Assembly (NCBI GenBank): GCA_002150815.3
Contig: NDFF03000234.1
Location: forward strand, 1-42,666
Length of the DNA: 42,666 nucleotides
DNA from: Grammothele lineata
Taxonomy: Eukaryota > Basidiomycota > Agaricomycetes > Polyporales > Polyporaceae
Reading direction: 5' to 3'
Part shown: positions 5,845 through 34,207 of the stretch, in pieces
Position numbering within the stretch: the first letter of the stretch is position 1
How the letters are laid out: each line of letters begins with the position of its first letter
Program-made: the position numbers and the translations under genes
Notes under the pieces: model-generated
Databases searched by the model: none
Told to the model about the DNA's origin: nothing
What the model saw: only the letters and a program-made list of their open reading frames with translations

Positions 5845-5853
5845 GCTGTCCGG
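5845..5853. repeat. Candidate target-site duplication, left copy
   Basis: The 9-mer GCTGTCCGG lies exactly 17 bp outside the GATAATATCT block that opens the strongly conserved terminal inverted repeat. The identical 9-mer lies exactly 17 bp outside that block at the right end. KDZ-superfamily elements are known for about 8-bp duplications (described for Zisupton), so 8 or 9 bp is plausible. Confidence 0.7.
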
Positions 5854-6319
5854 AGCTCTAGACATTACATGATAATATCTTCCCGCCTATTAGGCGGAGA
5901 CGAAGATGTATCTTGCCCGCCTAACGAAGGAGGCCGTGGAAGGCGATCCCGTGGTCGGATGGCCCCCATATTTTAGATATCATGTCAGCATGTCATGTAG
6001 AGCATGATTCCGTATGTCAAAAGGTGCTCACCGTCGTATGTCGCGCTTTATGTCGCGCGGGTTGTTCTGGGGGCGGAGGCCGTCTAGCGCCCGGTGCACG
6101 CGCGCCATCAAAACCGAGCCGCCCGCCTGAAGGAGGCACCGGCTACGGTCGCCGGAGATCCCGAGTCCGATTTCCCCCGATCCCTCCCCACTGATGCCCG
6201 AGCAGCCGCCCGATCTCCATCTCCTCCCGCCCCTGCTCCGCCCGCGGCCCGCAAAGGGTCCGTGCGTCCTAGGACCCCGAAGACCCGCCGCCTGTTGGCC
6301 TCCGGCCATCTCGGGCATT
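5854..6319 (+). repeat. Left terminal inverted repeat (466 bp)
   Basis: This is the reverse complement of 36346-36811. From 5871 inward the two copies align without gaps over about 449 bp with some 15-17 mismatches by eye. About 200 bp (roughly 6085-6290) is identical. The outermost 17 bp match at only 10 positions. Near the outer end is a perfect interrupted palindrome, CCGCCTA-T-TAGGCGG (5883-5897), followed by another CCGCCTA around 5916-5923, so the heptamer occurs three times within 41 bp. Two copies of ATGTCGCGC lie near 6037-6060. These are candidate transposase-binding sequences, by inference. Confidence 0.92.
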
Positions 6320-7457
6320 GGTCGCTTTTGCCGGTCTCGGCCCGCGGCACCTCAGCACCTGCCACTCGGTCCACCGGCCCACAGGGTCCGTGCGCCCATT
6401 GGCTGTGAAAGGCGCCAGCTCGCCGGTCATCTCGGGCATTCGCCGGGAGCTTGGGTGTCCGATATTGTCGGAGCAAACGCGCGCCCCAGACGAACGCGGC
6501 GGCGTCCATCCCACAGGGTTTGTTGGTGCGGCACCTATGGAATGTAGAACCTGTATGTTAGTACAAGTGTTAGTGTATACACCCCGTCAACAGATCCAGG
6601 AGGCCGTGGATGGACGCACGAGGGCAGTAGGGCAGCCAGCGCGCACACCAGCGGCGCGAGCTTCAATCGTTGCTTGCAGAAGAGTATCCCTCCGTAAGGC
6701 ACACCGCCGAGGGACGACCGTGATGTTGGTGGCCGCCGCGCAGTGCATGCGGGCATACAGGGGTGAATCCATGGGCCGACTCTCGCCGCGCGGGCTCGCC
6801 AGCCATGCGCAACCAGTTGGGGAGGGGCAGGCGCATCGAGCCACCAGGCATACTATGCTCACCTGCTAACCTGTATCCTCATGCCAGCAGATGGGCCCCT
6901 TGCTTGCAAAAACTTGCCCTCGCTGCGTGGGGATGAACGCGTGGCTGGAGGACAGGGGGAAATGCAGACACGACTGGGCCAAACTCACCTAGCGACCATG
7001 TTGCTCCCTTCTTGTACCGCGACCCATCCTTTCCTGCGTGTTCGGCCTCCGGCGATGAATGGCGCATGCTCTCCTATCCCTGCTGGGCTACTTCGGGCGC
7101 GCATTGGAGGGGGGAATGTGCGTGAACATGAGGCATCACTTACCTGTCTCGCCCTCCTGCAGCACGCTCCAACAGTTCCCATATTCCATTGAATCCGGCG
7201 GCGCGTCAGTGGAGAGGCGAGCTGGGACAGGGGCGAGAAGGTGTCGACGACGCGTGACAGTCGCCTGAGGGAGGCTTGTCGGTGGCGGCGGGTTGAAGGG
7301 AGAGGACGGAGGCTGCGTCAGGCGGACTCTTTCACGCGACCTCGAATCGAGTCCGTCTGCCGGCGCCAGTTGCGCTGCACTCGACACCGCGTACACTTTG
7401 CTCGCTGTACGCCTCTGCTGCAAGTTTCCTCGCCCTACCCATCCGCTGCAAGTTGGC
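6320..7457. other. Unresolved left subterminal region
   Basis: The sequence is GC- and CpG-rich with many short overlapping frames on both strands and no recognised motif. Immediately inside the left inverted repeat, the segment CATCTCGGGCATT occurs twice (about 6307 and 6428) about 120 bp apart. The right end has a single hybrid copy. No gene is called here. Confidence 0.4.
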
Positions 7458-8141
7458 ATGGGTAAGTCATCTTCATTCCCGCGCGCGCTACCACACTGAT
7501 ACCCTGTTATTCAGACACAAACAAGTCTTCCAACAATCGCGCCGTCGCCGCCGCTAGCGGCACGAAGCTGCACTTCATGCAGTCGAAGGGCAGCTACTCC
7601 ACTTTTGCGCTGCCTGCACGCGCCTCGCATCATGTTGCACGTCCGTCAGCCTATCTAGCGTGCGCTCAACATTCTCACTGGTCTACAGAGCGCCGCTTCT
7701 CACCCAGCGCAACCGCCCGCACCTGCAACAGCTCAGGTGAGTCTGTCAGCACGCGCGCCATGACCCGGATTCGGGACGATTCATCTGTTTGCCATAGGAG
7801 ACACCACCCACCCGCCGGCGCATCCCTCGGCCTCCGACGGGCGCCCCCTTGTGGACGATGCTTCACCTTGCGAGGCGTCCGGCTTTGCGGTCGGCTCGTC
7901 TCTGGACATTTCCACTTCAGATCCCGCCCATGACTACGTTGAGGCGTGGACCATGGACCGGCTCTCCCTCGCTGACGATGCCGCTGCGAACCAGCCCGGC
8001 GAGGAATCAAGCCTCTGCGGCGGCGAAGCCGAGCATAGCGATGCGTCTGGGGATGCTCTTATGTCGGGGAGCTTGCTGGCCAGCGGTCCAACCAGCGAGC
8101 ATGGCTTTCCGCTCGACGGCGCTGAGGATTCGTTCATGTAA
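7458..8141 (+). CDS. Putative small acidic protein, unknown function
   Basis: A splice model with consistent phases gives about 200 residues: ATG G at 7458-7461, an intron GTAAGT...TTCAG (7462-7514), an exon from 7515 to 7736 (which may itself lose a 48-nt intron 7641-7688), a second intron GTGAGT...CATAG (7737-7797) and a final exon to a TAA at 8139-8141. The N-terminus is Ser/Ala/Asn-rich. The last ~100 residues are strongly acidic and Ser/Asp/Glu-rich with no recognised domain. The acidic tail, canonical splice signals and frame closure favour a real gene. No homology is recognised and the first exon is very short, so confidence is limited. Confidence 0.35.
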
Positions 8142-9900
8142 CCCTACATAAAGCGTTGGCGCCCTGGCTTTCTTGATTCCTGAATGAAACGCTTCATATG
8201 CCACCTACTCCTTTGGGAAACACACGCGCTCTGCGCACGTGCATAACATCCCACTATTCGGAAGACTTACGTCATTCGATCTGCGTCACACGATCAGATT
8301 GGCTCCCATGGCGCGGCCCGCCACTCCGCGCGCTATCACCTGGATTGCGCCCCACCGCGACGCGAGCCGCAGCCCCTATTACAGCTGAACGCAAAACGAT
8401 AGACCACACGCGCCGTTTCCACCTTACAGATCCGGTACTAGATGCCCACCTTGCAAGGCAATCCGCACCACTCGCCGGGCGAGACGCACCACCTAACGCC
8501 TTCGGCGCGAGCCTCACAGCCAATCCTCACCATCCCAGACTCCACCTGGGGCCACATGTTCCTACACACGAGAGAGCACTCGCGGTCTATCGTTTTGCAT
8601 TCAGCTGTAGACAGTTTCAGCAGCGGGATGCGTCGGACAGATCATAGAGCCATGGAGCGCGGTCCTGATGTGACTGGATCTCGGTTATGTTGTGACACGG
8701 CAGACGACGCGCCTTCGCGGCCTTGTGCTCTTGCTCGCGCGCGGCGGCCCACGGCTGGTAGGCTAGTACGAGTCTAAGTGCGCGGCCGCCCTCCTTGTCA
8801 GTCTTCAGCATAGGAGCATTTGTGGGCCTCTTACTTACCGCTAGATGAGTCCTCGCGCGTTAGGCTTGACCAGAAGTCGTGGGTCGAGTGTATCCCTGAG
8901 AAGTCACGCGAAAAGGGAACTCCTAAGTGAGCCAACCGAGTGCAACCTGCAGGATCCAATAAGTACTTCTTGTCGTGCGATGCCACGCCTAGCGGTAGCG
9001 ACGCATGCTCGGAGGGCAGCTTGAATTACTCGAACTCGCCGGTATAACTGCGTCCTCTCAACTCTCGCGCGCGCTGAGGCGCAAGATTCCTCACCCTCGC
9101 GAGCCTTTGTCCTGCTTGAGTCCTCAGATCAGCTTCGCATGTAAAAATAATGAGTGCACACTGGACAGGGCCTCGCGCGTGACTCAAAGTTGAGCATTCC
9201 CTCGCGGATTCTGCATATACCTAGAATATCAGTAGCTCGCGCGCTGAGGTGGGTCATCGCGCGGGCGAACAACGTCAGACGGCCCGGCTGTCACGCTGGA
9301 GGGCACTGAAGCTGGATCTTGACGCTCGTCACGCCCGGTGGTGCCCCCACTGACCGTCGCCCATGCCTGCCGAGGGGTTGCTGAAACTGTCTATTCGCGC
9401 GTCACGACTCGTAGGGCCCGCGCGATGTGTGCGCACTTCCTTCTCGTATCTACGCCCTCCCCTCGCGCGTTCCGCAACCCGTCAGCATCATAATCACGCT
9501 CGTTTCTCTTGCGCGAACCACACCTACTGTCACGCTACCCATGCCAATCACCCATCGCTCCTCCGCGCTTACACGAGCGCGGTCTTGGGCATCTGTAACC
9601 CTTTCGCGGCGCGTGTATTTCATTCCCACCAAGCGCGCGCGAAGGGCTACCCGCGCGGGGAGATTTTCCGTGCAAGTGGGGTAGTGTGTACAGTAGCCAG
9701 AGCCGCCTGGCCTGTTTGTCCAATACTGCCGACCGTCCGTCGCCTTCTTCGTTACGCGTCGTCATGCCTTCCTGTTGTACCCCTCAAAGGACCTGGCCTC
9801 AGATATGTCCGAGCAGGCTGCTCTCATCCGTCATACGGATGCAATTGACCACGCGTGCCACGTAAGTCGCGCGATTACAAGGGTACGGTGGTATCTCGAG
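8142..9900. other. No gene resolved
   Basis: The octamer CTCGCGCG and close variants are scattered through 8.85-9.5 kb (for example near 8853, 9065, 9173 and 9465), without a fixed period. Frames on both strands are interrupted and show no recognised motif. This may be degenerated cargo or regulatory sequence. Confidence 0.35.
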
Positions 9901-9906
9901 TTCCTT

Positions 9907-10220
9907 TTAGGTACCTGCACTCATACGCGTCTGCACTGCTTCATCCGCCTCGGCTCGACCCGCTTTCCTTTCTCTTACAACGCGATCCACCACTCGCATC
10001 AAGCAGGCCAACGCCGTCGGGGCGTAGACGTGTTTTGGAAAGATAAATCGCTTGACGCTTTGATGCCGACGATGGACGTTCTCGAGGGCACCACCGTGAC
10101 TACACAGTGGCTCCCGAGTGGGTCGGGCTGACATCCACGCGAGCCACGCGCAGGGTAAATCTGGCGGCCGTTTAGTTTCTACGCGCTGTACGATGTTTGA
10201 CGCCGTCTTACCTTGTCCAT
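9907..10220 (-). CDS. Possible leftward gene downstream of shared promoter module
   Basis: A 35-bp module shared with the TET gene promoter (10289-10323) points leftward into this interval. ATG GAC AAG at 10220-10212 is followed by a GTAAGA donor. Below it, two leftward frames look coding: one gives about 55 residues ending RRRWPA, the other ends with a charged helix (RVVDRVVRERKAGRAEADEA). I could not build one consistent transcript. Rightward frames also exist here (VDVFWKDKSLDALMPTMDVL), so the strand itself is uncertain. Confidence 0.22.
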
Positions 10221-10288
10221 TCAGCTCGCCTCAGCCCATCTCCCCGCTACCCAATTCTTCGGACCATGCCCTTCGGCGTCCACCGACG

Positions 10289-10323
10289 ACTTATAGGACT
10301 TGGGCGAGCCCAGTAAGCCATCC
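10289..10323 (-). promoter_or_regulatory. 35-bp TATA-containing promoter module, copy 1
   Basis: Read on the minus strand this matches 33869-33903 on the plus strand at 33 of 35 positions. It includes the blocks CTTACTGGGCTCGCCC and AGTCCTATAAGT. Flanking sequence on both sides is unrelated, so the conserved unit is sharply limited. The plus copy lies about 300 bp upstream of the TET/JBP start codon, in the right place for a core promoter. This suggests a coordinately expressed leftward gene here. Confidence 0.6.
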
Positions 10324-11094
10324 ATGTGCACCGAAAAACACGGCCCCCCGCGAGTGGTAGGCGCGAGGGATTGGAAAGGGAGGGTGCGGATGAGCGCGTG
10401 GCGTCGTTCCGTGTGCCACATGCGACGGGAGCGACTTAGAGGAAACGCGGGGTCCTGGCCGCATTCTGCCATGTATCCTCAGGGGTGGGTTGGCGGGTGC
10501 ATCTTCTTCGCCTTCGCCAAGCGTCGACAAACAGCAACAACCGTGACTTCACGGTTGCGCCTGAACTCATATGTCCTCTCAAGGACTACGGGAAAGCAGG
10601 TATTTCTAAGACAACTTTCAGCTTGCTCACGGGCTCTGGGAGAGTGGTATTCTTACCTGGTGCCCGAGATATCCATTTCCCTCCACCGTTCCCTTCAACT
10701 CAGGTCTCCGGTTCTGCTCACGCTATGGTCGGCGGATTTGGCGCTCTCGGAAGAGCTGAGGCTCATACCTTCGTAAACATCCCGCGCTCGCCCGGGACAT
10801 AGGGTGTATGGGATGGGGGACGGGGATGAGGGGCGCCGCAGCGAATGACCGGCGGGTAGGCGCCCGACGATTCCTGTCAACAAGGTCACGTGACTTATCA
10901 CCCCGCCCCGACATCATATTTCCGACTTGGAGTCTAGACCCTGCGTCGCCTGTGCCTGTTTCAGATCCCTTTCAGGGCGTCCTTCGGTCGATAAGTACTG
11001 GATTCCCCGTATAGATACCATTGATTAGAAGCGCGTCGGAAGTGATAGCAACCTTTGTGCAATCCCATTGACGATAGCTCATGTACACGCGTAA
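10324..11094. other. Ambiguous interval with hairpin copy 1
   Basis: A rightward frame (10485-10802) contains RDFTVAPELICPLKDYGK and resembles a fragment around 10098 reading RDYTVAPEWVGL. This hints at a duplicated coding motif, but leftward frames here are equally open. The first hairpin of the GTGACTTCAC family (10538-10557) lies inside. No gene is called. Confidence 0.3.
10538..10557. repeat. GTGACTTCAC hairpin, copy 1
   Basis: The 20-bp sequence CAACCGTGACTTCACGGTTG consists of perfect 9-bp arms around a CT centre. Confidence 0.8.
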
Positions 11095-12935
11095 CTAGCG
11101 TCCGACCTCGCGAACCAGCCACTCTCCCCCCTCTCCCGGTATGACCGCCGTCCACTCGGAGGGACGCTGTCTCGTGACCTTGTACCCACACTTCGCTTTG
11201 CATTCCATCTGCACGCCGCCGTCTCCCAACTGTGTGATCTTCATGGTTTGAATTGCGCCGCATTCGCATTGCAGGGGAATGTCGTCGCCGAAAGGACGGA
11301 TCGAACGGTGCGCCCACTTCATCGCGTACATTTGAGTCGTCCGTGCGCCCTTGCTGTTAAGATAACGCGCGTAAAAAATCACGCCCGTGTGTCGTCCGAG
11401 ATTAATGCCTGAAGCGGCCAGCTCCAGCACCCGCTGCGGCTTGCCATGGATATCAGCGCCCTCGAGAAGATGCTTCGCAGCGAAACTTTCAAAGAAGGGG
11501 CCCAAAAACGCGGCTTGAACGGACTCGGCCTCGAAGAAGAATGCGTACTTGGTCTTCATTCTAGTGGGCGCGCCGTTGATTAACCACCGCGCTCTCACAT
11601 ACAATGACGTCGCTACTCACTCGTCGCAAAACGCACGCAATACTCGCATATTGTCGCGCAGCTTCACTAGGGCACCGCACGAGATGAAGCCCAGGTGAAC
11701 GTCGTGCTTCGCCCCGAGGGACCTCATGTTCGGTCCGATCATGTTGCCGAACCACTGGCGAAGGCGTCAGCGCACTATCATCCCCATGTGCAAGGGCACC
11801 CACCGTCTGCAGGGATGTTGCCGATGATTCCGGACCCCAGAACAGATCCCCTGTGTCGCTGTGTGAATGCGCGTAGATGAACACCACCACTCGAGCATGA
11901 GGTACGTCGCTGTGGGCATGAATCAATTATGCTTGAATCGTCACCACCCCAGGCAGATGTGCACTCACCCACATAGATTGACCACCGCGCTATCCAGCTT
12001 CTCCCGAAACGCTGTCGCCTCGGTCACCGCCCTGATGTTGAACGCAATGTCTAGGAGGTGGAGGTGGGGATAGTCGTTCTCCTCCTCCTCGAAGTACTGC
12101 TTCAATGAGCAGTGCATTAGATCCGCGGGCGTGCCGCCGAACGCAAGACCCTCCATCCTGATATTGATGATGTACACCGACTGGGTGTTGCACCGCGCTT
12201 GGAGCGAGCGGCGACCCGAGAGCACGAAGGTGTCGTAGCCTTCTGATCTCTCGAACGCAGGTTCATTCTCGATGAAGAAGCCCTGGCGACAGAAGACTTA
12301 GGTCGCATCACAAGGGGAGAACTCAGCACTCACCACGTAAGGCACTGGTTGCTTCTGATATTGTTCATGATCGTGGCAGCCGACACATACATATCGCAGG
12401 TTCTGGAGGAAATCCCCCAGGTCGAACTCCTCCTCCTCGGCGAGTCGCGATGCAAGCGTGACGTGATGAGTCGCGCACACGACACGCTTGCATTTTTCAC
12501 AAACAATGAGATGGCCGCCGTTGTGACAGAGGTAACAGAACTGCTCGCCAGGTCAGCGTTCTACTCAATTCAGACGAGCGGGCACTGACCTCCTCCGAGT
12601 CCATCTTCGGGCGTGGAGGTGGCAGCACCACTATACCCTTCGCCCGCTTCCTCCGCGCCTCGCTCTTTTGCGCTTCCCTCTTTTGGGCCTCCGCCTGCTC
12701 AGCCTCAGCACGAAGGCGATCACGCTCCGCCTCGGCCTCTTCGAGTGCCCTCTTGCGAGCTGCTGTTGGATACCGAGGGATGGTCTGCCCAATCGCCGGC
12801 GGCGCAGCTGGAGGGGTACGCGCAACAGGTACGTGAGCGAAGCAAGGACGCGAGCAGAGTCCACAACGTACGGAGTTCCTCTCGCGGCGCACGATCGCCT
12901 GTGGACCGACGAGCCGTCTGCTTGGTGCGTGCCAT
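11095..12935 (-). CDS. Histone H3-tail mimic with coiled coil and PHD-like finger
   Basis: Seven exons with closed phases give 502 residues: 12935-12872, 12807-12590, 12540-12334, 12282-11969, 11909-11804, 11754-11621 and 11560-11095. Exon 1 encodes only a near copy of the histone H3 N-terminus (MARTKQTARRSTGDR, then APREEL). It keeps R2, T3, K4, Q5, R8, S10 and T11, but has Arg or Glu at positions 9, 14 and 18. Residues ~35-85 form an Ala/Glu/Arg/Lys coiled coil. Residues 96-149 form an eight-ligand cross-brace zinc finger (C96, C99, C108, C111, C116, H119, C146, C149) of PHD/RING type. The rest (150-502) is a globular domain with a VVVFIYAHSHSDTGDLFW strand and a C-terminal zinc-ribbon-like CxC...CxxxC (446-472). 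PHD fingers typically bind H3 residues 1-6, so self-recognition or partner bridging is an inference. A TATATAAAG box lies ~50 bp upstream. Confidence 0.8.
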
Positions 12936-13190
12936 AGTCGATGTGTGCTGTCTCTGAACGTCCGATAAGCCAAGTCGTACTTTATATACCCTCCCGTGCG
13001 CCCGCGTCGCAACACCCATCGTTATTGCCTCGTGCACTCTAGCTCGCGTCCGAAAACGAAAATATATTCCCCTGTGTTACCTACATCTCCTCAAAACGTC
13101 CCGCATAAGGCTCGCTTAGAGGTACAACCCACCGCTCCTACTCTCAACATTGAGTTTCCCTACTTGTGTGACGCGAGTCCAAAGGCACCG

Positions 13191-14444
13191 TCACGTCTGG
13201 ACACAGGAAACGTGGACTCCTGTCCACGCCTCCGCGGCCTGCGCGTCCTCGCGCGACGTGATAGTTATTGTTCCACCTGGACACGAGGAACGTGGACTCC
13301 TGTCCACGCCCCCGCGGCCTGCGCGTCCTCGCGCGGCGGAAAGAAAAATTCACGTCTGGACACGGGAAACGTGGACTCCTGTCCACGCCCCCGCGGCCTG
13401 TGCGTCCTCGCACGACGTGATGGTTATTGTTCCGCCTGGACACGAGGAACGTAGACTCCTGTCCACGCCCCCGCATCCTGCGCGTCCTCGCGCGGCGAAA
13501 GATTGGTACGTCTGGACACGGGAAACGTGGACTCCTGTCCACGCCCCCGCGGCCTGCGCGTCCTCGCGCGACGTGCCTTATTGTGTTCCACCTGGACACG
13601 AGGAACGTAGACTCCTGTCCACGCCCCCGCGGCCTGCGCGTCCTCGCGCGGCGGAAAAAAAATCACGTCTGGACACGGGAAACGTGGACTCCTGTCCACG
13701 CCCCCGCGGCCTGCGCGTCCTCGCGCGACGTGATAGTTATTGTTCCACCTGGACACGAGGAACGTGGACTCCTGTCCACGCCCCCGCGGCCTGCGCGTCC
13801 TCGCGCGGCGGAAAGAAAAATTCACGTCTGGACACGGGAAACGTGGACTCCTGTCCACGCCCCCGCGGCCTGTGCGTCCTCGCACGACGTGATGGTTATT
13901 GTTCCGCCTGGACACGAGGAACGTAGACTCCTGTCCACGCCCCCGCATCCTGCGCGTCCTCGCGCGGCGAAAGATTGGTACGTCTGGACACGGGAAACGT
14001 GGACTCCTGTCCACGCCCCCGCGGCCTGCGCGTCCTCGCGCGACGTGCCTTATTGTGTTCCACCTGGACACGAGGAACGTAGACTCCTGTCCACGCCCCC
14101 GCGGCCTGCGCGTCCTCGCGCGGCGGAAAAAAAATCACGTCTGGACACGGGAAACGTGGACTCCTGTCCACGCCCCCGCGGCCTGCGCGTCCTCGCGCGA
14201 CGTGATAGTTATTGTTCCACCTGGACACGAGGAACGTGGACTCCTGTCCACGCCCCCGCGGCCTGCGCGTCCTCGCGCGGCGGAAAGAAAAATTCACGTC
14301 TGGACACGGGCAACGTGGACTCCTGTCCACGCCCCCGCGGCCTGTGCGTCCTCGCACGACGTGATGGCTTATCGTGTTCAGCCGGGATACGAGGAACGTG
14401 GACTCCTGTCCACGCCCCCGCATCCTGCGCGTCCTCGCGCGGCG
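13191..14444. repeat. Minisatellite of 16 ~78-bp units in 472-bp higher-order blocks
   Basis: About 16 half-units of 78-79 bp alternate in two forms, giving ~157-bp dimers. Three dimers form a 472-bp block: 13351-13822 is repeated at 13823-14294, apparently without change in the parts compared. Each half-unit contains CGTGGACTCCTGTCCACG, a 7-bp-arm hairpin with a TCCT loop (some units have GTAGAC). The array lies 250 bp upstream of the H3-tail-mimic gene, between it and the next leftward genes. Recent block duplication is implied by the near identity. A role as promoter spacer or recombination site is speculation. Confidence 0.92.
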
Positions 14445-15082
14445 CATTCGTTAAGCCCGATCCACACAGCCTCCTCCTGCTTCCTCCACGAGCCGTGCAC
14501 TAGTCCTCCAGAGGCACTTCGACTATCGGCTTGCATTGAAAACGTGGAACACATAGATTACAAGGTACTATATGGTCGCAGACGGCCCGGGAATACGTGA
14601 CTTCACGTAGTTCCCTAAGACCGTCCATATGCAGTGGATGTGTTGTACATACCTCATGGTTTAGCCTTCCTTTCCAGCTGGCATCCCAACGCCGCGCCAA
14701 CTCCTCGGTCTCCGTCGTAAGTATGCTTGATGGTACTTGGTGTTTGCGTTTAATCCTGCGCTGGACGATTTTGAGTCGTAAGAGAGCACGCGGGGAGCAG
14801 TCGCCGCAGGAGGAGAGCGCGAAGGGAAAACGGAAGCTGGGCAGAGGAAGAAGGGTGCGGTGCAGAAGTGCAACCGTGTCCAATCCGGGATCGGTACAAT
14901 AGGCGCCTCTTTCCTAAACGGGTCGCAGGTCACGCGCGTGCTCCGTCCTTTTCGCACGGTATCTTAGCTAAGGGATGGGGACTCAGCAAACCGGTCCCCT
15001 AGCGCTTGGGAGCTCGCCTGTGGGAACGTCGCCGGCAGCCGCCATCAACCGTGGCTGCTGTCGCGCCCTGCGCGCCCACCGG
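14445..15082. other. Gene remnants, strand uncertain
   Basis: On the minus strand a segment ending near 14653 reads TETEELARRWDASWKGRLNH, followed by a plausible 85-nt intron (14652-14568) that contains hairpin copy 2. On the plus strand a basic frame (KRARGEQSPQEESAKGKRK, ~14778-14900) also has a splice acceptor. No complete gene could be assembled. Confidence 0.3.
14589..14615. repeat. GTGACTTCAC hairpin, copy 2
   Basis: The arms are GGGAA+TACGTGA and TCACGTA+G+TTCCC around CT, giving 12 pairs with one bulged G. It lies inside a plausible minus-strand intron (14652-14568). Confidence 0.8.
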
Positions 15083-15160
15083 TCAGCGCTCATCGCGCCT
15101 GTACTCGTGCTCACCGTTGGGCACGGTGAGGTCAACTATCTCCTTCCCCTCATGTCCGCT
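15083..15160 (-). pseudogene. Remnant exon related to the 29.75 kb exon
   Basis: The minus-strand frame reads EIVDLTVPNGEHEYRRDER and then stops (TGA, 15085-15083). The nucleotide sequence from ~15155 to 15030 matches 29747-29880 (plus) at roughly 80%. There the intact exon reads EIVELIVPDSDHEYGHDER. No upstream exons were found in 15161-15410, so this looks like a captured or decayed C-terminal exon. The EIVDLTV core resembles a SUMO-interacting motif. Confidence 0.5.
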
Positions 15161-15410
15161 CCGCGCGCTTTTTTGTACCATAGAACATAATCATAAATGA
15201 TGCTTATTCCACTAGTTATATGAGTGATACAAGTCCCCGGTCAAGCGGCACTGAGCATCCCCTTCCGGGATCACATAGCCCTCCAGGATGCTCTTTCATC
15301 TTGATGTATCTCTTAGAACTCTTCTGCGCCCTTTCGCGTCCACTGCTAACGCAAGTACTTAGTATATTACGGGATGATTGACATTAAGGTGGCCATGGCC
15401 AGTGCGTAAT

Positions 15411-17288
15411 CTAATCGCTATCACAAAGGTCTATCACGTCCGTGGGTTCGACGCGCACCCGCTTCACCCGTCCCCTGCTTGAACCCACATCCAAGGAGGG
15501 CCGGCGGCGGCGTAGATCTCCGGGATCGCGCGCCGGATGAGCATCGCCGTCCACCAGCTGAGCCCGCTTGACTGCAGCCGCGGCCACCGTCGCGCTTCGG
15601 CGCGCGCGCGCGGCCAGTCCAAAAGCCTCCCGGACGTATTGGCGTAGGCTCGCGGGCGCTCGCCGTGCGTTCCCATCCAGCGCGCGAAGGGCGTCACCCA
15701 ACCCGCGCCGCGCGCCGCGCGCGCACGAGGTCAGGAGGACCGCAGCGGGACCCTCGCCGAGGGTGCTATCGAGTTCCGCGAGTTCCGTCGTCTGCAGACC
15801 CCACCCCGACTGGTCTCCCTTCCAGAAACGTACGACCGAGTGAGACGACAGGGCGCTCGCGAGGTGCGCATTATCGTCAGGCAGGTGGAAGTATGACGGT
15901 TCCGTGAGGTCGTCCTATGCAAAGTAAGCATGCGGTCGTTCGCGCGAGGCGGAGCGCTCCAGGCACTCACCGACCACCATACAACCAGAGGTGTATTTGC
16001 CGCCAAACACGCTGCGATGACCTCCCCTGGGCGCTGCCACAGAGGGAGCGGTCGCCCCGCGATCCTCTCCCAAACCTCCAAGCATTCGCCTAGGCGTGGA
16101 CAGACAGTAGTCATCCCCGCAGAGCGGACAAAGACGAAGGGCGAGCCGGCCCGGATGCTCGTTCCCGAGGTGGTGAAGGGGAGATATTGCCAGGACTCCG
16201 CCTCAAAGTCCCACCGCTGAAAGATCGGAATGCCGGTCCCGACGACCGCTCCAATGTTTGGACATTCGGCCATGAGAACCTCCCGCTCAAAATGCATGCG
16301 GACCGTCATGACCTTGGGGCCCGCATCCGCCTGTGTGAATTCGTGAGTGCCCGTGACTGATAAAACGCGAGGTTTGCCCGTACCGAGTACCACAAAACCA
16401 CTACGATAGGATGCTTGTCATCGAGGCGCGTGTATTGGTCAAGCAGTGTCTCCTGTACCGGTGACGATGGTGTTATGCAAGGGTTGTTACCATTCCCGTT
16501 CACACTCACCCAGTCCCCCGTGTCCCTCTCTGGCGTGGCTTCACGGATCGTGCCGTCCGGTGCGTACCTCGGGTTCCGGAACTATATCCCCTCAGTCATT
16601 GAACTCAAGAAACGAAAGACACGCGAGTATGAGACGTACCAGCAGCTGGGTGGTAACGTTATCGAGGCTCTGTACGGGGGGGAAACGCCATAAGCCCGAC
16701 AGCAAGCAATATGGACGATGCCTCACGCACCCCAATCCCTCGCCGCCTGTACGTTCTCTCGGAGCGGGCACGAGGGGCCGGCCTCTGCTCCCGGACCGCC
16801 TTGAGTGCCGCCCTGTGATTCTTCACATCGGCCTTGGCTCGCTCCAATGCCTGCTCGGCAAGGGTCTTTTCGCGGAGGGCGTTGTCGAGGGCGCCCTTCT
16901 CAACCTGCTCCAGCCACTCGATCTGCTCGCGAAGGGCATAGAGCGCCTCCAGATCGGCATCGGTGGGACCGGTTTGGGGTGGAAAGTGGGCTGTTTGGCA
17001 GCGCTTGCACTGCTGCAGATTCAGACGCCCGCAGCCGAAGGAGAACAGTAGCGGACTTACCACGTAGAAATACGCGCCCTCGTAACGCGGCTGGTGCGAG
17101 ATATCGACCGCCTTCACAGCCTTGAACGGGAAATGATGGCATACAGGGCACTCTGACTCAGGTAGAGGAATGATAGGACTCGCCGCACATATGCAGGCGT
17201 GGCGGAATCCTTGAGTGAGACTGGCTTCAGTGAGCTGGGACGGACGCTCGGACCGGGGCCGTAATCGAGCGTAGCCCCGCCCGGCCAT
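15411..17288 (-). CDS. Gene A: zinc-finger/coiled-coil protein with repeated W-LG module
   Basis: Six exons with consistent phases give about 533 residues: 17288-17061, 17012-16731, 16669-16640, 16581-16384, 16330-15971 and 15914-15411. The start ATG follows a pyrimidine-rich leader. The first intron splits a Cys pair (ECPVCHH) from a second (QQCKRC), a possible split zinc knuckle. A long coiled coil follows (ALYALREQIEWLEQVEKG onward). The centre has a module with Trp-x5-Trp, then FVFVRSAGMTTVCPRLGECL, which recurs in gene B. The tail is Arg/Ala-rich, has a KRVRVEP basic patch and ends DVIDLCDSD, a candidate SUMO-interacting motif. The function is unknown to me. The tiny 30-nt third exon and the exact 5' end are the weakest parts of the model. 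Confidence 0.65.
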
Positions 17289-17886
17289 AAGGGAACGGGG
17301 ACGAGTCGCGAATGAGAGGATGAGATGAAGGAGTGGAAGTAGGAGATGTGTCGCAAGAAGAGGTGCACTCCGCTGTCGCGCAGAGAGCGCTTTAAGAGCG
17401 CGGGGGGCGAGCGCTCTCGGGCAATCCAGAGGTTTCGTGTGATCGCTGGGTTTTCCGCAATATTCACTACCGACCCGCCCGTCATATCACCATTTTCGAT
17501 ATAACTTCCTTGTTTCTACGCCCCGCCCAATGATTAGCAGTGGAAGATAATTTTTCAGGGCGCCGCTTGCTGGTAATCCGAGGCGTTCGATCGTATATTC
17601 AGCGGATTCCAAACAACTGGTATCTATGTGTCCATTGCCCTTTGCGCGCCCGCACAGACTCTGTATAGCCAGACTCCGGAAAATCACGCTACACGGTTTA
17701 CATTACGCTGTCGCGCGTCCACAACGGTTTCCCCTGAGTCCGACCAAGCGTCCACCCCTGCCTACGCGCGCGAATAGGGTCAGCATGCCGGCCTTTCGAC
17801 ATTATACCAAACGAAGAAGTCTTGCCTGGTCTGGGTTCATCCTGACACGAGGTCGCGCACGAACCTGGTTTTGAGAGGCGCCCGGA

Positions 17887-18890
17887 TCAGCGACATGTGG
17901 TTGCCAACCGAGTAAGACGTACCCTGACTTGAGCAGCACTGGCGGGGTCTCCTTCGCCCTCCCCCGTCAGATCTATCACTGGGCGCGCCGCGAAAGACTG
18001 TTGACGTGCGCCTTCGCTCGGCTTGAACTTTGGGAGCTTTTTACAGGTTCAATGGAGTCCGCAGCCTGTACAGGGGTGAACGTACCGTCCTGACGGCCAC
18101 GGGTTTGCGCCGTTGATTCTCGAGAATCTGTATCCATTCGCCAAGACCGGCGCAAATGCGGTTGCTGACGTTGCGGATGAGCAGAATGTCGTGCCCGTGG
18201 GGAAGGATGATTTTGTCGTCGGCCCGCACGCGTTTCCAGGTGTCTTTCTTGGGGCACCACCAGTCGATCACAAAATCGTCAGCGGTCGAAGGAGGGATGT
18301 GATGATAGACGGTCCGCAAGATTTCTTCCCGAAGTTGCAGCTCGTTCGCGTAGGGGATGTTCGTATAGAAGGCCTTGGGACCGGCCACGGTCTGTAGCGA
18401 CGTTCGGTCAGGATGTAGACCATCGAGATATACACAGAGCACGCACCGGACCCCACACTATGCATCTCAAACTCGTGTACATCGGGTTCGACGATAGGCG
18501 GAGGTTGGCGTAGTCCTCAATTGCTTCCTGACCTCCATGGACCGTATGCCCGAGCAGCTGCAAGACATAACCGAGTTCCGGGCAAAGGTGGGCGTTGCTG
18601 GCGCGGACGAGGGCGGGCTCATCGAGGATAGTAGTGTCTATGGTAATCTCGTTCGCAGCCTGGGGCATCGTCCACGACATTTCCCAGGACCCCCACACCT
18701 GAAAACGAGCATCGGGATGCAGCGTCAGATGGTCGCGGACGCAACCCAAGTCCGGGAGCGTAGCCTCGCCGGTGTCAGAGTTCATCTCCTCCTCACGCCG
18801 CCCATGGTCGGTGGTAAGCTGGAGACGATTAGCATATTGACACACTGAGCATCATCCCGAACGCACCCAGACAAAGACCTTTCGGGCCAT
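17887..18890 (-). CDS. Gene B: paralogue of gene A, unknown function
   Basis: Four exons give 279 residues: 18890-18879, 18818-18447, 18391-18086 and 18036-17887. The first is a 12-nt exon (MARK) with a good ATG context. Two copies of the gene A module are visible: FQVWGSWEMSW...LCPELGYVLQLL and VIDWWCPKKDTW...ICAGLGEWIQIL. The intron before TVAGPKAFY lies where gene A has its intron before ADAGPKVMT, so the two genes share structure as well as sequence. The C-terminus contains PVIDLTGEGEGDP, a candidate SUMO-interacting motif matching gene A's DVIDLCDSD ending. It has no recognised catalytic motif. It lies 0.6 kb upstream of gene A on the same strand, consistent with tandem duplication and later divergence. 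Confidence 0.62.
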
Positions 18891-19132
18891 GGTCAGAAGC
18901 TCCTGAATGGCTGAGGTCGAACGTGTAATGCAGACTGATCACGGAGCGGTCACGACGTCGTAAGGCTCGCAGTCGCTCGCGTTCGACACCAGCTCGAGCC
19001 CCGATCGAGATCTGGCGAAAATGGTTACTACAAGCTCTGGCTAGTTTTTTCAGACCCTCTCAACCGTTACCCGCGGACAGCTGCTACTGAGATGACATCT
19101 CCGCCTTCACCGGTTAAAAATCGCCCCAAAAA

Positions 19133-19688
19133 TCATGACAACGGCTCCTCGGATGTGCCTTCCGACTCATCTGGAACACCTGAGGGAGAGTTCGGTTGGG
19201 AGTTGAAAGCGATATTTCTGATATGAGACTGACCAGGTTCCGAAGTATTCGCGCCCGTCCCAGTCGATGTAGAACGCTGTTCGCTTTCTTGACTAGCGAC
19301 CGCGCGTTTCCATTGGCATTGTATATCGTAGCTCACAAGTAGGCAGTTGGCTTGAGCTTGGAAGAAGCACGAGGCTCATGAGGTTTGTGTGCTCGCAAAT
19401 CCGCAGAGGCGTACCTGTGAATTCCGAAACGTGTTCCGGGACCTGCAGATCAATCCGGCCGAAACGCTCGCCGTAACTGAGGTCAGAAGTGCGCGCATGA
19501 ACAGCTGGAAATAGCATGTGTTAGCCTGCGCGTCGTTCGAAGCCCAGGAGCAGACCTGGGTCGCTTGACACCGTTGTGTTCGACATAGACGTGCATGTGG
19601 GGCGGGCTGATCCCGTAGTGCCGTCAGGGTCGGACGCAAGCGACGGGCGGTTTTCCAGCGGGTCCGAGTCCGTAGGGTCGGATGTCAT
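19133..19688 (-). pseudogene. KDZ transposase remnant
   Basis: Leftward exons contain the segment SYGERFGRIDLQ, then after an intron LLVSYDIQCQWKRA. These match the KDZ catalytic signature as I know it (GERYxNMD ... SYDIACQW) and the intact copy in this window (KYLYVDL ... TYDINCQY). The CxC2 region and the Glu-containing part are absent. The sequence after the signature is a Ser/Thr/Glu-rich tail ending at TGA 19135-19133. The first ~45 residues from the ATG at 19688 are Ser/Asp/Pro-rich and unlike a transposase. It is either a dead second transposase or a short chimeric gene that captured a transposase fragment. Confidence 0.5.
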
Positions 19689-19888
19689 CCTGGCTAGACG
19701 GAGCTTCGAGGGGCGGGGGCATATCTCCTCGTCCGACCCTTAAAAAGATTGCGGCAAAGTGGAATCCGCTCGCTCGAACACACACGCGCGTGCCGATCGG
19801 CTAGAGAGGGGATCGGAGCTTCTATGGAACAATTCTATGTCTACTCGGACGCAGTCAAACCGAGCCTATTTTCCCGGAACATCATAGC

Positions 19889-22388
19889 TCAAAGCGCCCT
19901 TCGCCCGCCATCTCCAGTGAGCGGAGTCGTCCTGCCCGTTTTGGTAAGGCTGTGACTCGGATGACGCAAATGTCACGTTGTACTCACCCGTCGTCACCGC
20001 GCTTCCTCGCCGACTCCTTGCGATCACGCGGCGGCCGGGACACCACGTTGGAGGCTGTGATGGGAGGCAGAGCCCGCCCCTCGATTGCACGGGGCTTGCG
20101 GGGCCTACGGCCGCGTGTGGACGCTGTGGGCACAGTCTGCCCGCTATAGGAGAAGATGTTGAGCCTTTGTTCGGGAGGAGAGGGCGGACTACTCGACACC
20201 TACCGTGGCAACGCCGGCGCGGACGCCTCAGATGGTGCGTCCGCATTCGATGTGTCGGCGCGAAGGATGTCGGGGCTGTTCTCTGCGTTTAGTGGCTCCT
20301 CTGCATAGTCCGAACCCCCTGCAATCGGTGTCTGCGACACCAACGCTGCTGCGCTCTCGACCGCACTGATAGGCGTGCCATCGACGGTCCCGTCGACCGC
20401 ACTTTCGCTCGCGCTGTTCGCCGCGTGGAGCGCCGACGCGATAGCAAACGCTAACTCGCCAGAGGCCTCGGGCGCAGACGTGGATTGACTCTCTACATTT
20501 TGACGCGAGCGTCGAGGGGCTTAAGTCAGACTGTCTTCCTGTGGCCGAGCGCAACACGCACCTGGAGGCTGGAGGGTGGCCTCTGCCGCTAAACCTCCCT
20601 CATCACCCACGTCTGCCATTGCCACATCATCGTCAGGGAGGTACTCCATCTCCGACTCGACGAATTCGACACTGTGCGAACGGGAACGGGAGGAGCGCGA
20701 AGGCAGCGCTTCAGTGTCGACGGAAGCAACACGCGGGGGCGCCGCGTTGATATTGAGGGGCACGTCGCTGGCAGACGGGTTTAACGCGCTGGACAGCCTA
20801 GCGTGTTGGACGCCCACAACCTGGAGAACGTCTTCCCAGGAATATTCAGCAAGTGTTCGATCTCTCATCAAAGTGTGACTTACTCTGCAGCACGTCCGAC
20901 TCGGACGTGCCGGCGCGAGGGCACAATATGGCATCCCGTATTTCTATGATGAGATATTCAGTTAGCGTTCGAAGTCGTCATGCGGGATTGACTTGCCTTC
21001 TAACGCGCGCAGTGCTTGGTGGACGAGTTCTGCGCCCTCGGTTCGCGCATTTTCAAGTGCACGGGCGCCTACGTGAATGTCATCAGTATGGATAGAGGAG
21101 AGCGTGCTTGGCATGTGAGACTTACGCTCCAACAGAGCACGCCCCGCTTGTGCGGCCTCGCCAACGGAATGGCTGTCACTACCTGACCGCCGAAAACATG
21201 AGTGTTCTCCCGTGAGGTGTAGCTAAAAGGTAATACCTGTGACGCATCGATGTGCCCAGAACTGCAACACAAACTCAACCTCCTCACGTGTGCGACCAAG
21301 AATGTGGCATAAGAACGTCAGCAGGTCTTCGCCCTCTTTCGTACGTCCCTTGGTTGTGCTGCACCAAGTGAGTGGATGAGCGTCGAGAGCGCAGCTTGCT
21401 GCACTCACATTAGGTAACTGGAGCCGCCTCGGTGATTGGGCCCAGCAAGAGCAATGAGACCGCCCCATGCCGCCTGGACGTGGGCGGCCTCGAGCGCTGC
21501 CTCGGCGTAATTTGCGATGTCCTCGGGGTGACTGCAAAGAGCTTCAGAGATGTAACGTTGGCATCCCGAAGAATGTACTCACGGAGGAGCGGGCGGTCGC
21601 ACTTCAGTCGGCGCAACAGCCTCAGTGGCGTCTTCAGAGGCCTCGGAGGCGGTATCATCGTTGGTCCCGAAACGAGCGGCGTTGGCTTCTTGGGCGAGCG
21701 TCTCGTACTTCTTCCGCTCGTCTGCGCCCACGCCGTCGTAAAGCTCCCTTGCGTCGGAGCGTATTTTTTCGACCATGTAACGACCCTTCTCGTTGTATTG
21801 TGCAGGGATACCGTGGTCCCCGGAACTGACGTACATGTCGAAGGCGGAGTACTCCCGTTGGCGTCTCCTGAGAGGAAAATTTGGCATGACAAGAGGCTTC
21901 CGCACAGGGTTGGCTTCGGCAGCAGCTGCGGCTTGTCGATGCGCCGTAATGAAACGTTTGAGATGTGATTTCACGATCTGGTGGGAGCTCGGGAGCTCAG
22001 TAGAGATAAACCAAGCATTTCTCGAAGGACGTACATCGGGAAGCCGGTTCATGCGCTCGTCGTATTGCTCCTGTGTCTCCCGAAATAAAGGTTTGAGACC
22101 CTTAGCCTTGGCCGCGGCCCCCGCGTTTTTACGGCGGATCGCGAAGTCTGCGTCAGACTCGCCCGGCCCTGGGGAGGGATGGGTCGCCTTAAAGCGAGTA
22201 CACATTTCCCCTACCCATGCCTCAATTTCGCACGGTCCCTCCTTAGCAGGCCGGACGCGATGGGCAAAGTGCGACTGAAAATCCTGTTGGAGCCAGGCCA
22301 GCTCGTATCCAGGGAGTTGGGACGTCGTTCGTGTAGCATATTCGCGTTTTCTTGGCACCGATTTGCCCTTTTGCTTAGTTCGGGCCAT
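19889..22388 (-). CDS. MARTKQ-start protein with HMG-box-like region
   Basis: Ten exons close to 671 residues: 22388-21583, 21531-21409, 21358-21237, 21182-21126, 21068-20997 (GC-AG donor), 20943-20884, 20831-20562, 20492-20204, 20143-19988 and 19949-19889. The ATG follows a CT-rich leader typical of fungal promoters. The protein starts MARTKQKGKSVPRKRE, the histone H3 hexamer through Q5 followed by a basic stretch. Residues ~205-265 (YSAFDMYVSSG ... RELYDGVGADERKKYETLA) resemble an HMG box, a minor-groove DNA-binding fold. Exons 2-7 are helical and acidic (EYLPDDDVAMADVGDEGG). The C-terminus carries RGRRPRKPRA, AT-hook-like, and a basic segment. Likely nuclear and chromatin-associated. The HMG call is by eye, and several small exons need transcript support. 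Confidence 0.65.
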
Positions 22389-23811
22389 GAGCGCGAGTGA
22401 GAACGAGAGACGCAACGAATGAGCACGAGAAACGGAAGCAGGCGCGGAGAGTATGGACAGAGCGAGGATGAGTAAGGACAGAGCGAGAAGTATTGCCTGC
22501 TGGTTCACGTTGGTGGGAGAACGTCACATGATGTGACGTTGGGCCGTAACAAGCTCCATTCCAGGTAGAGCGCGTACGTCGCGTAGACTTCATCGCGCCG
22601 CCGTCCGCCTCGCCTCTCTCCGCCTCGCCACTGCCTCAATTATGGGAGACTTACAAGACGACTGCGGGTGCTCGCGCTACCGGGCAGAGTACTCGTTGCG
22701 ATACCGGGCAGAGTACTCGTCCGGCCTCGCGAACGTCCAGTCGTCAGACGAAGACACATGCCGAAGGTGGTAAGTCGCGTTGAACCATGACTCTCATTCG
22801 GGACGACGTGTGCATAGTGACATTGGCCTCTCCTTAGGCACACTTCCAACCAGAACGCAGACAGAGTGGTTGCCTCATACCGACCGCTCCTATTTCCTCC
22901 CACCCTCGCGTTCCAGCGAGCGCGCGCTCGTGCACACACAATCTGAGAGACGCTCTCCCCGTCTCTCGCCAATGGTATGAGGGATCTAGGCGAGACTATT
23001 CGTCGTCTCGCGATGGTCATCGGCTGACGACATCACGTCAATGTTCTGGACTTCGTATAGACTATGATATCGCGCCACAACTCCCAGGAGTACCGCCAGA
23101 GATGCGCTGTGGAGAGGCTTTTCATGCGGGGGAGAACATGGTCGCATCCGACCGTGGCTGTTGACTAGGGAACACCACAGTGGTGCAGAGAAAAACGCTG
23201 TTTCAAGGGGAAACGCGTGCCGATCTCATCTGGACCGCACGGATGAGATTGGTGGTCGATGTGACGCATACGCGGGGACGTATTTGCGCAGAAGTGGACT
23301 TGATATGAAGCGGACCTGACAAGGAACTATCCCTGAAAGGATGAATGTGAAACCGTTGGGGGGCGGGTCCCCCTACGGCTAGCGTCGCCCGAGGGGATAA
23401 ATGGAGTCCAAACATATGCCGTCTGACCCTTGAAAAAATGAGCGATTGATGAGACGGGTCTTCGCAAGCGTGGGTGGACGTATGCACTCGCCATGTATAT
23501 TAGGAGCAACATTTCTACCGTCAAGGAGGGCGACGAGCGGAACATGCCTCATATCGAGATGGAGTATGATGCAGGCACGCCAGGCGCCCGAGAGACGGGC
23601 GACTCGGAGCCTCGTGGCGCAGCGCTCGCGCCCGTTCAGGGTAGGTTCACGGTCGAGTGTGGCCACCTCGGCACGAATTCACGCCCGCTTATCCCGACGT
23701 GATGACGTGTCAATACATGCATCTTCTGGAGAAGATGACTCTGGACGAGGGGAGGACTAAATACTAACAAGCGTCGACCGCGATCCTACGCCCCTTTCAA
23801 AAAGACCGTCT
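22389..23811. other. No gene resolved; short tandem repeat
   Basis: Contains the CT-rich 5' leader of the MARTKQ/HMG gene (22389-22500) and two adjacent copies of a 24-bp unit with core ACCGGGCAGAGTACTCGT (about 22679-22725). A rightward 70-codon frame at 23493-23702 is plausible-looking but unrecognised and unsupported by splice context. Confidence 0.35.
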
Positions 23812-24690
23812 CTACTCCATGAGACCCAGCGCACGCATAACCCTAGCGCGCTCCATGTGGTAAAGAGCGCGATATACCTCGGTATGGTGCTCGGAAACCA
23901 ACACCAGGTCGCGGATAGCGCTGTTGTACCGCTCAGAACGAGCGACCTCCTCTCGCAGGCGTGTCAGCTCGCGGTGAGCGTGGCCTATGCGTGTTCAGTC
24001 CAAGAAGGTAAGGCAGTGAGTGAAGGAACACGACTCACACATGCCTAGGCAGGGGCAGCGCTCCTCTACGGGGTGAGGGGGGGGCGCGCCGATCTCGCCA
24101 GCCGCTGTTTGAGTGGCGAACGTGTCTCTGGCAATGGGGGCAAAGGTGAGCGTGCCTGGCCGTGTCAACTATACCGCAATGACGACTTACTGGGGCGCGA
24201 CGGTGGTCATTGAGATGGAGCGGGGGCAAGCAATTGGGGGGTACGTCGCTGGACGATGGAGGTTGACGTTGAACGTTGAGAAACCACACGAGACGTCCTA
24301 CCCCCACCTGTGAAATCGGGCGTGACCTGGGATCAGCCTCGTTGTCGCCATCCCTGCCTCGCAGGCAGTTGCCATCAGGGAACGCTTCAACCTAGAAGGT
24401 GGCCCATGATGGAACGCCCGACGCTGACTTCTGAATCGTGACGACAGTGGTACACGTTTTGGGGTGTAGGAGTCTAGCCTGCCTATGGGTGAGTCGCTAA
24501 AGAGATACGGGTCGTGTGCGTGACTTCACGCACACGGCCCGTGGAAGCGGAATGCACGAATGGCGGCGCCCAGAGCGCGATACGCACTCACCACTTCCAG
24601 CAAGCGCGAGTGACGCATCAGGTACGCGACGGCTAGAGCGGTGGTCCGCACGTACGCATGGTACAGGCGTTGAGGTACTAGTCACCGTCG
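23812..24690 (-). CDS. Putative coiled-coil protein, 5' end unresolved
   Basis: The C-terminal exon (23984-23812) reads HRELTRLREEVARSERYNSA and ends in ALYHMERARVMRALGLME, clearly amphipathic. The preceding exon (to 24039, donor GTGAGT) gives GTLTFAPIARDTFATQTAAG and a short CPC-x3-C cluster in frame. An upstream exon (about 24671-24592) reads LYHAYVRTTALAVAYLMRHS before another GTGAGT donor. Exons between 24.3 and 24.6 kb, and the start codon, could not be fixed. No family was recognised. One member of the hairpin family lies in the intron after 24592. Confidence 0.45.
24507..24542. repeat. GTGACTTCAC hairpin, copy 3 (longest)
   Basis: Seventeen-position arms around a CT centre. The inner 11 bp (CGTGTGCGTGA / TCACGCACACG) are perfect, then one T/G mismatch, then ACGGG pairs with CCCGT. 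It lies about 50 nt inside a probable intron of the leftward coiled-coil gene. Confidence 0.85.
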
Positions 24691-25421
24691 GTGACATTGC
24701 CTACCGAACATCGGAGAGGGAGAGCAGGGGTAAAGCGGCGGGACTTTGGAGAGCAGAGGCCGGCGGTGACAGGGAGAAGGGACAGGCCGTGCTAGAACCG
24801 CAACGACAATGCACCCTTGGGAGGATGACGAGCGGCCGCAAACGGCAAGGTTCCTGGGTACAGTCACGTGTACAGATCTCACGGCGACGCGCGCCGGAGC
24901 CCCGCGCGCAGTCAGAGGCGCCCGACAGCCCTCAGCCACAGGCCGGCGGGTGCGCCAAGGGAGCGCAACGCCCGACAGCCGAACTTCCGACCGCTCCAGC
25001 GTCCGCGAGGTGCGTGAATCCTTCGGTACTGACTGCCCCTGCTGATATGCAGATGATAGCAGTGGGGCATCCCGCAGGTAACCGTCGCTCTCGGCGAGAA
25101 CAGTCTGCGTGAAGTCACGCTTGCTGTCCACCGTGGGGAGAATCCGAGTAGAAAGGTGACCGTCTCGCGATCTCGCCTGACTGCTAGATGGGTTTCTCCG
25201 CATGTAATAATATAGTATACGGTAATTAAGGCCGTATGAAACTCGTCTTAGGGCTTTGGGATTGCTCGTTTGTTCATGAGCGGGCGCGGAAACCGCGGGG
25301 ATGCTGATCTGGTGGCCCGTGGCTCAACCGGTAGCCCACATCAGTCCGGGTTCGAAAACGCTAACCTGCCCCATCTGTCCGTGCTCCGACAACCTTAGAC
25401 CGTCTGTCGCCGAGTTTCAAC
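24691..25421. other. Central divergent intergenic region
   Basis: It separates the leftward gene block from the rightward KDZ transposase. Both strands carry long frames rich in Pro, Ala and Arg, without domains. Hairpin copy 4 lies inside. Just before the transposase, TGGCTCAACCGG (25319) and GGGTTCGAAAACG (25348) resemble tRNA-type A and B boxes about 30 bp apart, but no full cloverleaf can be drawn. Confidence 0.45.
25100..25127. repeat. GTGACTTCAC hairpin, copy 4
   Basis: Centre GCGTGA-AG-TCACGC (6-bp arms), then a 3x3 mismatch, then ACAG pairs with CTGT. It lies 295 bp upstream of the KDZ start codon. Confidence 0.7.
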
Positions 25422-34130: not shown

Positions 34131-34207
34131 CGCGTTTCTGGTTAAGGGGCGCAAGGGGAGGCGCGTCGACCAGAGACGCGACTTGCTGACGCGCGCTGCA
34201 GGGCGAC

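Follow-up and report, generated by a model that had tools for sequence, protein, structure and literature searches.

Proteins that imitate the N-terminal tail of histone H3 are known from viruses and from host regulators. The SNAG proteins GFI1 and SNAI1 carry such a mimic at their N-terminus, with a proline after the initiator methionine, and the influenza protein NS1, the product of another genetic parasite, has a short H3-like motif at its C-terminus. Here we describe a gene carried by a DNA transposon of the basidiomycete Grammothele lineata, in a window of 42,666 nucleotides (the whole of contig NDFF03000234.1, C175 in our numbering), whose product begins with a copy of the H3 tail, continues with a zinc finger similar to those that read H3, and ends in a half that is predicted to be caspase-like. 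The copy is N-terminal as in the SNAG proteins, and its Amanita form shares the proline after the methionine, but it matches H3 at 12-15 of 20 positions, belongs to a transposon protein, and is accompanied by an H3-type finger and a predicted caspase-like domain of its own. In contrast to the motif of NS1, it spans 20 N-terminal residues and has been kept in Amanita, Pisolithus and G. lineata.

The fingers of CHD4, PHF21A, TRIM33 and TRIM24 read the H3 N-terminus, and such fingers contact the N-terminal residues of H3. The ADD domains of DNMT3A, DNMT3L and ATRX and the PHD fingers of CHD4, PHF21A, TRIM33 and AIRE resemble the finger described here by profile, and in DNMT3A the reading of H3 gates the enzyme. 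The third ligand pair is H-x2-C in these readers, whereas it is C-x2-H/C here, and the new finger falls below the Pfam cut-off. The family protein also differs from them in carrying an H3 tail of its own and in the lack of any methyltransferase match. We know of no earlier mobile element encoding a histone-tail mimic plus its own reader; with a conserved, transposon-borne N-terminal copy of the H3 tail that is each time accompanied by a finger of H3 type, histone mimicry would reach mobile DNA.

Two groups of transposons offer further comparisons. The TET-positive KDZ transposons of fungi likewise combine a KDZ transposase of the CxC2 type with a TET/JBP-like gene (Kojima 2025, PMC12730594). 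Passages of that paper give terminal inverted repeats (TIRs) and 8-bp target duplications for Zisupton elements, as in the window element, and 7-bp duplications with TIR-less ends for Kyakuja elements, unlike it. In a term search of the main text of the same paper 'PHD' was absent, 'histone' occurred four times in other senses, and no PHD or histone-like protein was found. The VANC anti-silencing proteins of the Arabidopsis VANDAL transposons are also encoded by elements with fast-changing tandem arrays, and passages on them describe how VANC binds such arrays and causes loss of DNA methylation (PMC5735166). This likeness is architectural only, the protein studied here consisting of an H3 tail, a finger and a caspase-like domain.

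An H3-like N-terminus ahead of a zinc finger

The gene lies on the minus strand (12935→11095), where an open spliced frame of seven exons encodes 502 amino acids; the six introns of this predicted splicing are all GT-AG and 49-64 nt long. A TATA-like sequence, TATATAAA, is located ~50 bases 5' of the ATG. The protein starts with MARTKQTARRSTGDRAPREEL, which is identical to H3 residues 1-20 at 15 of 20 positions and departs from it by K9R, G13D, K14R, K18E and Q19E. Exon 1 is 64 nt long and comprises the 21 codons up to the equivalent of H3 L20 plus one extra base. A first-pass annotation made from the window alone had placed the gene at these coordinates, had read exon 1 as the H3 tail up to L20, and had noted that K9, K14 and K18 are all replaced by Arg or Glu, and on each of these points our gene model agrees with it.

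The alignment score of the tail was reached by none of 3000 shuffles, and the next-best H3 match among the 1257 ATG-initiated 21-mers of the window (both strands) had 6/20 identities. A search of the genome (41.8 Mb in 252 contigs) with a degenerate MARTKQTAR pattern returned five places with zero mismatches, the four H3 genes and the 502-residue gene. With up to three mismatches the pattern occurred at 24 places against 10 for its reversed control, and a proline-start version at 17 against 6. Besides the H3 genes, the window gene and its paralogue, there is one single-mismatch place, C105:47282. The frame there starts with MARTKQIARSVQ, its likeness to H3 stops at residue 8, and as judged by eye it continues into an alcohol dehydrogenase-like start.

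The genome holds one intact paralogue (C2:155158→153270, 517 amino acids, one intron corrected by eye). It starts with MARTRQTAKRSTGGTAPQRAL, and it shares the 64-nt length of the first exon and the intron phase with the window gene. Protein searches returned four distinct relatives, P0001 and P0003 from Amanita muscaria, P0002 from Pisolithus thermaeus, and the metagenome frame P0004, which is Amanita-type and 92% identical to P0001. An H3-like stretch precedes the motif FCYLC in all four. The N-terminus of P0004 is the H3-like tail itself, MPRTAQTAKKSTGGSAERVWL, while in P0002 the tail MARTKQTAGRTTSGYAKPAQL starts at residue 194 of a longer gene model, and P0001 and P0003 retain the tail end only, QTAKKSTGGSAERVWL, because their gene models join an upstream stretch. 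Since the three public models (P0001-P0003) begin ahead of the true tail, it goes unseen in annotation. Taken together, an H3-like tail stands ahead of the same cysteine finger in 6/6 proteins (the window gene, its paralogue, three Amanita-type and one Pisolithus), and the tail including its Met is visible in 4/6. Each of the four distinct tails scores above all 3000 of its own shuffles.

These six proteins form an undescribed family. In Pfam the family has no match above cut-off, none of the 5 proteins compared with NCBIfam has a match over cut-off, none of 74 stretches from viral contigs was confirmed, and titles and abstract starts in the literature yielded nothing on H3-tail/finger proteins of this kind. 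In the first two protein searches, scoring was confined to the candidates with the most shared words (7993 and 7994), and relatives may therefore be missed. The existence of similar proteins in other Agaricomycetes had been suggested as a possibility, and the homologues in Amanita and Pisolithus do keep the tail. Homologues without an H3-like N-terminus, looked for as counter-evidence, are absent among the six. Two decayed family relics in the genome, C165:9555-9815 and C79:7875-8039, have no readable tail in the 2.6 and 1.8 kb inspected, respectively; they stand outside the count of six.

Comparison of the four tails (window, paralogue, Amanita-type and Pisolithus) revealed that R2, T3, Q5, T6, A7, T11, A15 and L20 are invariant and that the residue after the initiator Met is always Ala or Pro. 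The N-terminal members of this invariant set are the H3 residues with which H3-reading fingers make contact. Position 9 is R, R, K and R, and K14 and K18 are kept in none. Position 4 reads K, R, A and K, so that mimicry of a K4-type mark, the only kind that the first-pass annotation had thought possible for the tail, is not a trait of the family. Between the paralogues the tail is the best-kept segment, with 14/21 identities (67%) against 27-49% elsewhere (finger 28/67, linker 20/73, ribbon 21/62, and three parts of the caspase-like half 41/101, 39/80 and 39/94). The Nei-Gojobori estimates for its 21 codons are 0.35 nonsynonymous (dN) and 2.0 synonymous (dS) substitutions per site, dS being near saturation, and different codons are used at 9 of the 13 post-Met residues common to the two tails. 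The low dN relative to dS and the differing codons speak for purifying selection on the H3-like residues, and not for a recent copy. The tail is in this sense an H3 mimic, its likeness being beyond chance and apparently kept by selection; binding of the tail in a pocket is putative.

The end of exon 1 at the L20 equivalent had also been read as the mark of a shuffled exon. In the stretch read, an intron at L20 is missing from all four H3 genes of the genome; their introns follow about residue 29-31, one gene having a further intron at G12/G13, and P0004 runs from tail to linker in one frame with no intron at L20. Exon shuffling from an H3 gene was therefore rejected; capture of the 5' end of an H3 gene followed by a later intron gain fits better. 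In three of these H3 genes (C33, C231 and C237) the encoded sequence is AAKSQARKTAA, with two extra residues before the K27 region relative to the fourth (C119).

The finger, the caspase-like half and the possible uses of the tail

The eight ligands of the finger are C96, C99, C108, C111, C116, H119, C146 and C149. A profile built from four family members and searched against the PDB matched CHD4 with an expectation value (E) of 1e-4, the sole match below 0.001, followed by PHF21A (0.0013), TRIM33 (0.0027) and then TRIM24. MLL PHD3, the ATRX ADD domain (0.044) and AIRE matched at 0.02-0.07 among 42 matches listed up to E 10. When the protein was searched alone, the top matches were TRIM33 (0.0009) and histone H3 (0.0011). 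By profile similarity the finger groups with the PHD/ADD-like readers of the H3 N-terminus, in line with the cross-brace finger of H3-tail-reading type proposed in the first-pass annotation, and it is predicted to belong to this class and to bind the H3 tail. Its ligand order in the four sequences of alignment A2, C4-C-(H/C)-C2, differs from the C4-H-C3 of PHD fingers. Against the 24-bit cut-off of PF00628, P0004 reached 16.4 bits, and the window finger gave no PHD match.

For the C-terminal half a caspase/CHAT fold is predicted at low confidence. The model covers residues 229-444 of the relative P0001 and used alignment A6, which contains noise columns from introns and out-of-frame exons read through; alignments A3 (misplaced fragments), A4 and A5 (both partial) were excluded. 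SAVED-CHAT proteins or caspases account for 8/10 fold-search matches with E ≤0.001. H282 is invariant in alignments A1 and A2 and C329 in the three sequences of A1, and in P0001 H313 follows the strand 305-311 and C361 the strand 355-359. The arrangement of clan CD peptidases, with His after strand 3 and Cys after strand 4, is thereby matched by chain position only, and proteolysis is predicted. The first-pass annotation missed this domain, as it did the complete 31-kb element with its target duplications and the upstream arrays described below.

A tail stands beside an H3-type finger each time, an arrangement suggestive of contact between the two, whether within one molecule or across molecules. 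We propose that the tail is a built-in ligand of its own finger and would keep the caspase-like domain inactive as long as no genuine H3 competes with it. We give this reading a probability of roughly 0.4. As the finger is followed by the predicted caspase/CHAT domain, gating would be the simplest use of the pairing. Removal of the initiator Met would expose A/P-R-T, the tail would then bind the finger of the same or a neighbouring molecule, and the protein would be shut or chained. Unmethylated H3 would release the tail, and the freed caspase-like domain could act on a protein of the chromatin close to the transposon and so, together with the element's TET/JBP-like enzyme, counter silencing. 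A filament of SAVED-CHAT, named in the title of a structure entry, is a precedent for chaining. For gating there is the ADD domain of DNMT3A, which blocks its own enzyme and binds H3 unmethylated at K4 (PMC10393158).

A weak covariation speaks for contact between tail and finger. Two positions ahead of the first finger Cys stands a Glu in the window gene and its paralogue, which have Lys or Arg at position 4, and a Leu in Amanita, with Ala at position 4. Readers of unmethylated K4, such as the fingers of AIRE and PHF21A, have an acidic residue there. On this basis we weakly favour self-binding over decoy capture. Two points count against a tail made for its own finger: the Pisolithus protein departs from the covariation (itself weak evidence), and the likeness to H3 extends to L20, beyond the usual contact of a PHD finger, which normally covers less than H3 through L20. 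The docking model of tail and finger was too poor to use, its best Foldseek match, to MLL PHD3, being weak (E 0.84).

The self-binding reading can be carried further, to a chromatin-sensing caspase in which the forged tail would occupy the reader, unmethylated H3 at a silenced element would free it, and proteolysis would serve as anti-silencing beside a DNA demethylase from the element itself. We consider this full sequence of events unlikely; if true, it would be the first such mobile element known to us. The system makes transposon counter-silencing in fungi testable, and the natural series of tails, which keep R2-T3-x-Q5-T6-A7 while K4, K9, K14 and K18 change, is a probe of what an H3-tail pocket needs.

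Conceivable, if somewhat on the unlikely side, is a tail aimed at the host, which would fill the H3-tail pocket of LSD1, as SNAG domains do, or that of other readers of the H3 N-terminus, and so recruit or block them. K4 is not needed at position 4 of a SNAG domain, and the tails, with A or P at position 1 and a free position 4, vary as do H3 and the SNAG domains. What makes the case for LSD1 serious is the Pro at the start of the Amanita tail, as in SNAG, together with the free position 4. The extension of the likeness to L20 also suits a host pocket better than a PHD finger. The genome has two matches to SWIRM, a domain that LSD1 contains (domain matches only), but SWIRM is also present in other complexes. 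Passages of PMC5896174 describe SNAG peptides that mimic the H3 tail and block LSD1, a need of the GFI1 SNAG domain for the Pro after Met, and LSD1 assays with H3 1-21, near the length of the copy. A host-aimed tail would, however, leave its pairing with an H3-type finger in 6/6 proteins unexplained, and no host partner was identified.

We regard as improbable a protease that clips H3, its finger docking on H3 and its caspase-like domain cutting, with the N-terminal copy as a pseudo-substrate or itself cut. The predicted caspase/CHAT fold with its invariant His and Cys is consistent with such an enzyme, and H3 1-20, the extent of the copy, is roughly what is lost when H3 is clipped after A21. 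However, the fold model is of low confidence and catalysis is a prediction from it, and L20 is followed by P, R, K and S in the four tails. Least probable of all is that the tail remains from an ancient capture of the start of an H3 gene (promoter and first codons) and serves only expression or nuclear import, without mimicry: H3-like tails are basic and the capture could have brought an H3 promoter, but the dN of the tail is far below its saturated dS, R2-T3-x-Q5-T6-A7 is invariant while several basic residues change, and no H3 intron matches. Of the interpretation in the first-pass annotation, the H3 mimic, the H3-type finger, the transposon and the homologues thus stand, while the mimicry of a K4 mark and the shuffled exon do not.

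The carrier transposon and its surroundings

The H3-mimic gene is cargo of a single DNA transposon of 30,959 bp (Table 1). Two ~1-kb relatives with the same ends, C127:123240-124268 and C1:1108216-1109242, were checked among the copies of the arm; they have perfect 8-bp duplications of their own, CACGCATG and CCCCTCTC, which fix the ends of the element, and they are presumably non-autonomous. Inverted repeats and target duplications place the gene within one transposition unit and bear out the transposon context assumed at first. The transposase domain together with the CxC cluster identifies a KDZ DNA transposon. Its ends are of the Zisupton type (TIRs and 8-bp duplications); Kyakuja-type ends (7-bp duplications, CA..TG, no TIRs) were rejected.

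Table 1. Features of the window, with coordinates on its forward strand
Feature	Position	Strand	Remarks
Left 8-bp target site duplication CTGTCCGG	5846..5853	.	identical to 36813-36820
Whole DNA transposon, 30,959 bp	5854..36812	.	inverted repeats and duplicated target at outer ends
Left terminal inverted repeat arm, 471 bp	5861..6331	+	448/471 match right arm (95%)
H3-tail/finger/caspase-like gene	11095..12935	-	GT-AG spliced model; kept in paralogue and two other fungal lineages
Exon 7, predicted caspase-like end and four-Cys ribbon-like end	11095..11560	-	C446, C448, C468 and C472 invariant in 3 sequences of A1
Exon 6, invariant C329 of predicted dyad, FISCGAL	11623..11754	-	3 sequences of A1
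Exon 5, invariant H282 of predicted dyad, YAHSHSDTGDLF	11804..11908	-	alignments A1 and A2
Exon 4, start of predicted caspase/CHAT-like domain	11971..12282	-	fold model built on P0001 residues 229-444
Exon 3, eight-ligand PHD/ADD-like zinc finger	12334..12540	-	four-member profile matches CHD4, E 1e-4
Exon 2, charged linker, coiled-coil-like by eye	12590..12807	-	least conserved part, 20/73
Exon 1, H3-like tail MARTKQTARRSTGDRAPREEL	12872..12935	-	15/20 H3 identities; dN 0.35, dS 2.0 (near saturation) against paralogue
Tandem array, ~80-bp units, 15.7 copies	13191..14444	.	255 bp upstream of H3-mimic start codon
Second MARTKQ-starting gene, MARTKQKGKSVPRK..., 269 amino acids	21582..22388	-	sequence start; likeness past ARTKQ not above chance
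CxC2 cysteine cluster of KDZ transposase	25804..26853	+	PF18803, 93.2 bits, cut-off 27
KDZ transposase domain	27030..27890	+	PF18758, 77.5 bits, cut-off 26.6
Stop-free open frame, 854 amino acids	30666..33227	+	no family match over cut-off
TET/JBP-like dioxygenase gene	34190..35853	+	HxD...H...R motif by eye
Right terminal inverted repeat arm, 471 bp	36334..36804	-	448/471 match left arm
Right 8-bp target site duplication CTGTCCGG	36813..36820	.	identical to left one

Tandem arrays recur upstream of the tail. The paralogue has one of 75 bp x 8.9, 159 bp upstream (locus L044, 4819-5504). In the Pisolithus P0002 model, repeats upstream of the tail have a period of 27 residues (60/171 positions repeat), and in the Amanita P0003 model a period of 17 residues (178/318), while P0001 shows a trace only (11/79). 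These arrays are known from gene models, and the periods correspond to 81 and 51 bp if the repeats are read from DNA. The P0002 and P0003 models read the array as protein, which hides the true start. As judged by eye, the array units are unlike between lineages.

The gene near the right end of the element is one that we take to be of the TET/JBP family; it gave no Pfam match over cut-off, and PDB searches returned no dioxygenase. Iyer et al. 2014 reportedly treat both TET/JBP and KDZ proteins. Another 22 places in the genome match the encoded protein. The most similar of them (80%; next 63%) is 2.2 kb away from the H3-mimic paralogue, so that both intact H3-mimic genes are linked to closely related TET/JBP-like genes. 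DNA-methylase domains are encoded in the genome. Around the paralogue, no KDZ match lies within 50 kb among the at least 71 matches listed, and the 11.5 kb of sequence read there showed no inverted-repeat ends. The paralogue adjoins what, by eye, is the end of a helicase frame of Helitron-like type (C2:150501-152535), and it may therefore be hosted by an element other than the KDZ type seen in the window.

A second gene of the element also starts with MARTKQ. It is probably not a further H3 mimic, since 92 of 5000 full shuffles reach its score, and 1162 of 5000 when ARTKQ is kept; no other copy of it was found in the genome. Just outside the element is a DUF6699 gene on the minus strand (1280-2236; PF20415, 51.2 bits), and to the right of the transposon, in a stretch of lower GC content, an (ACTACC)n array of 22 copies occupies 38428-38563.
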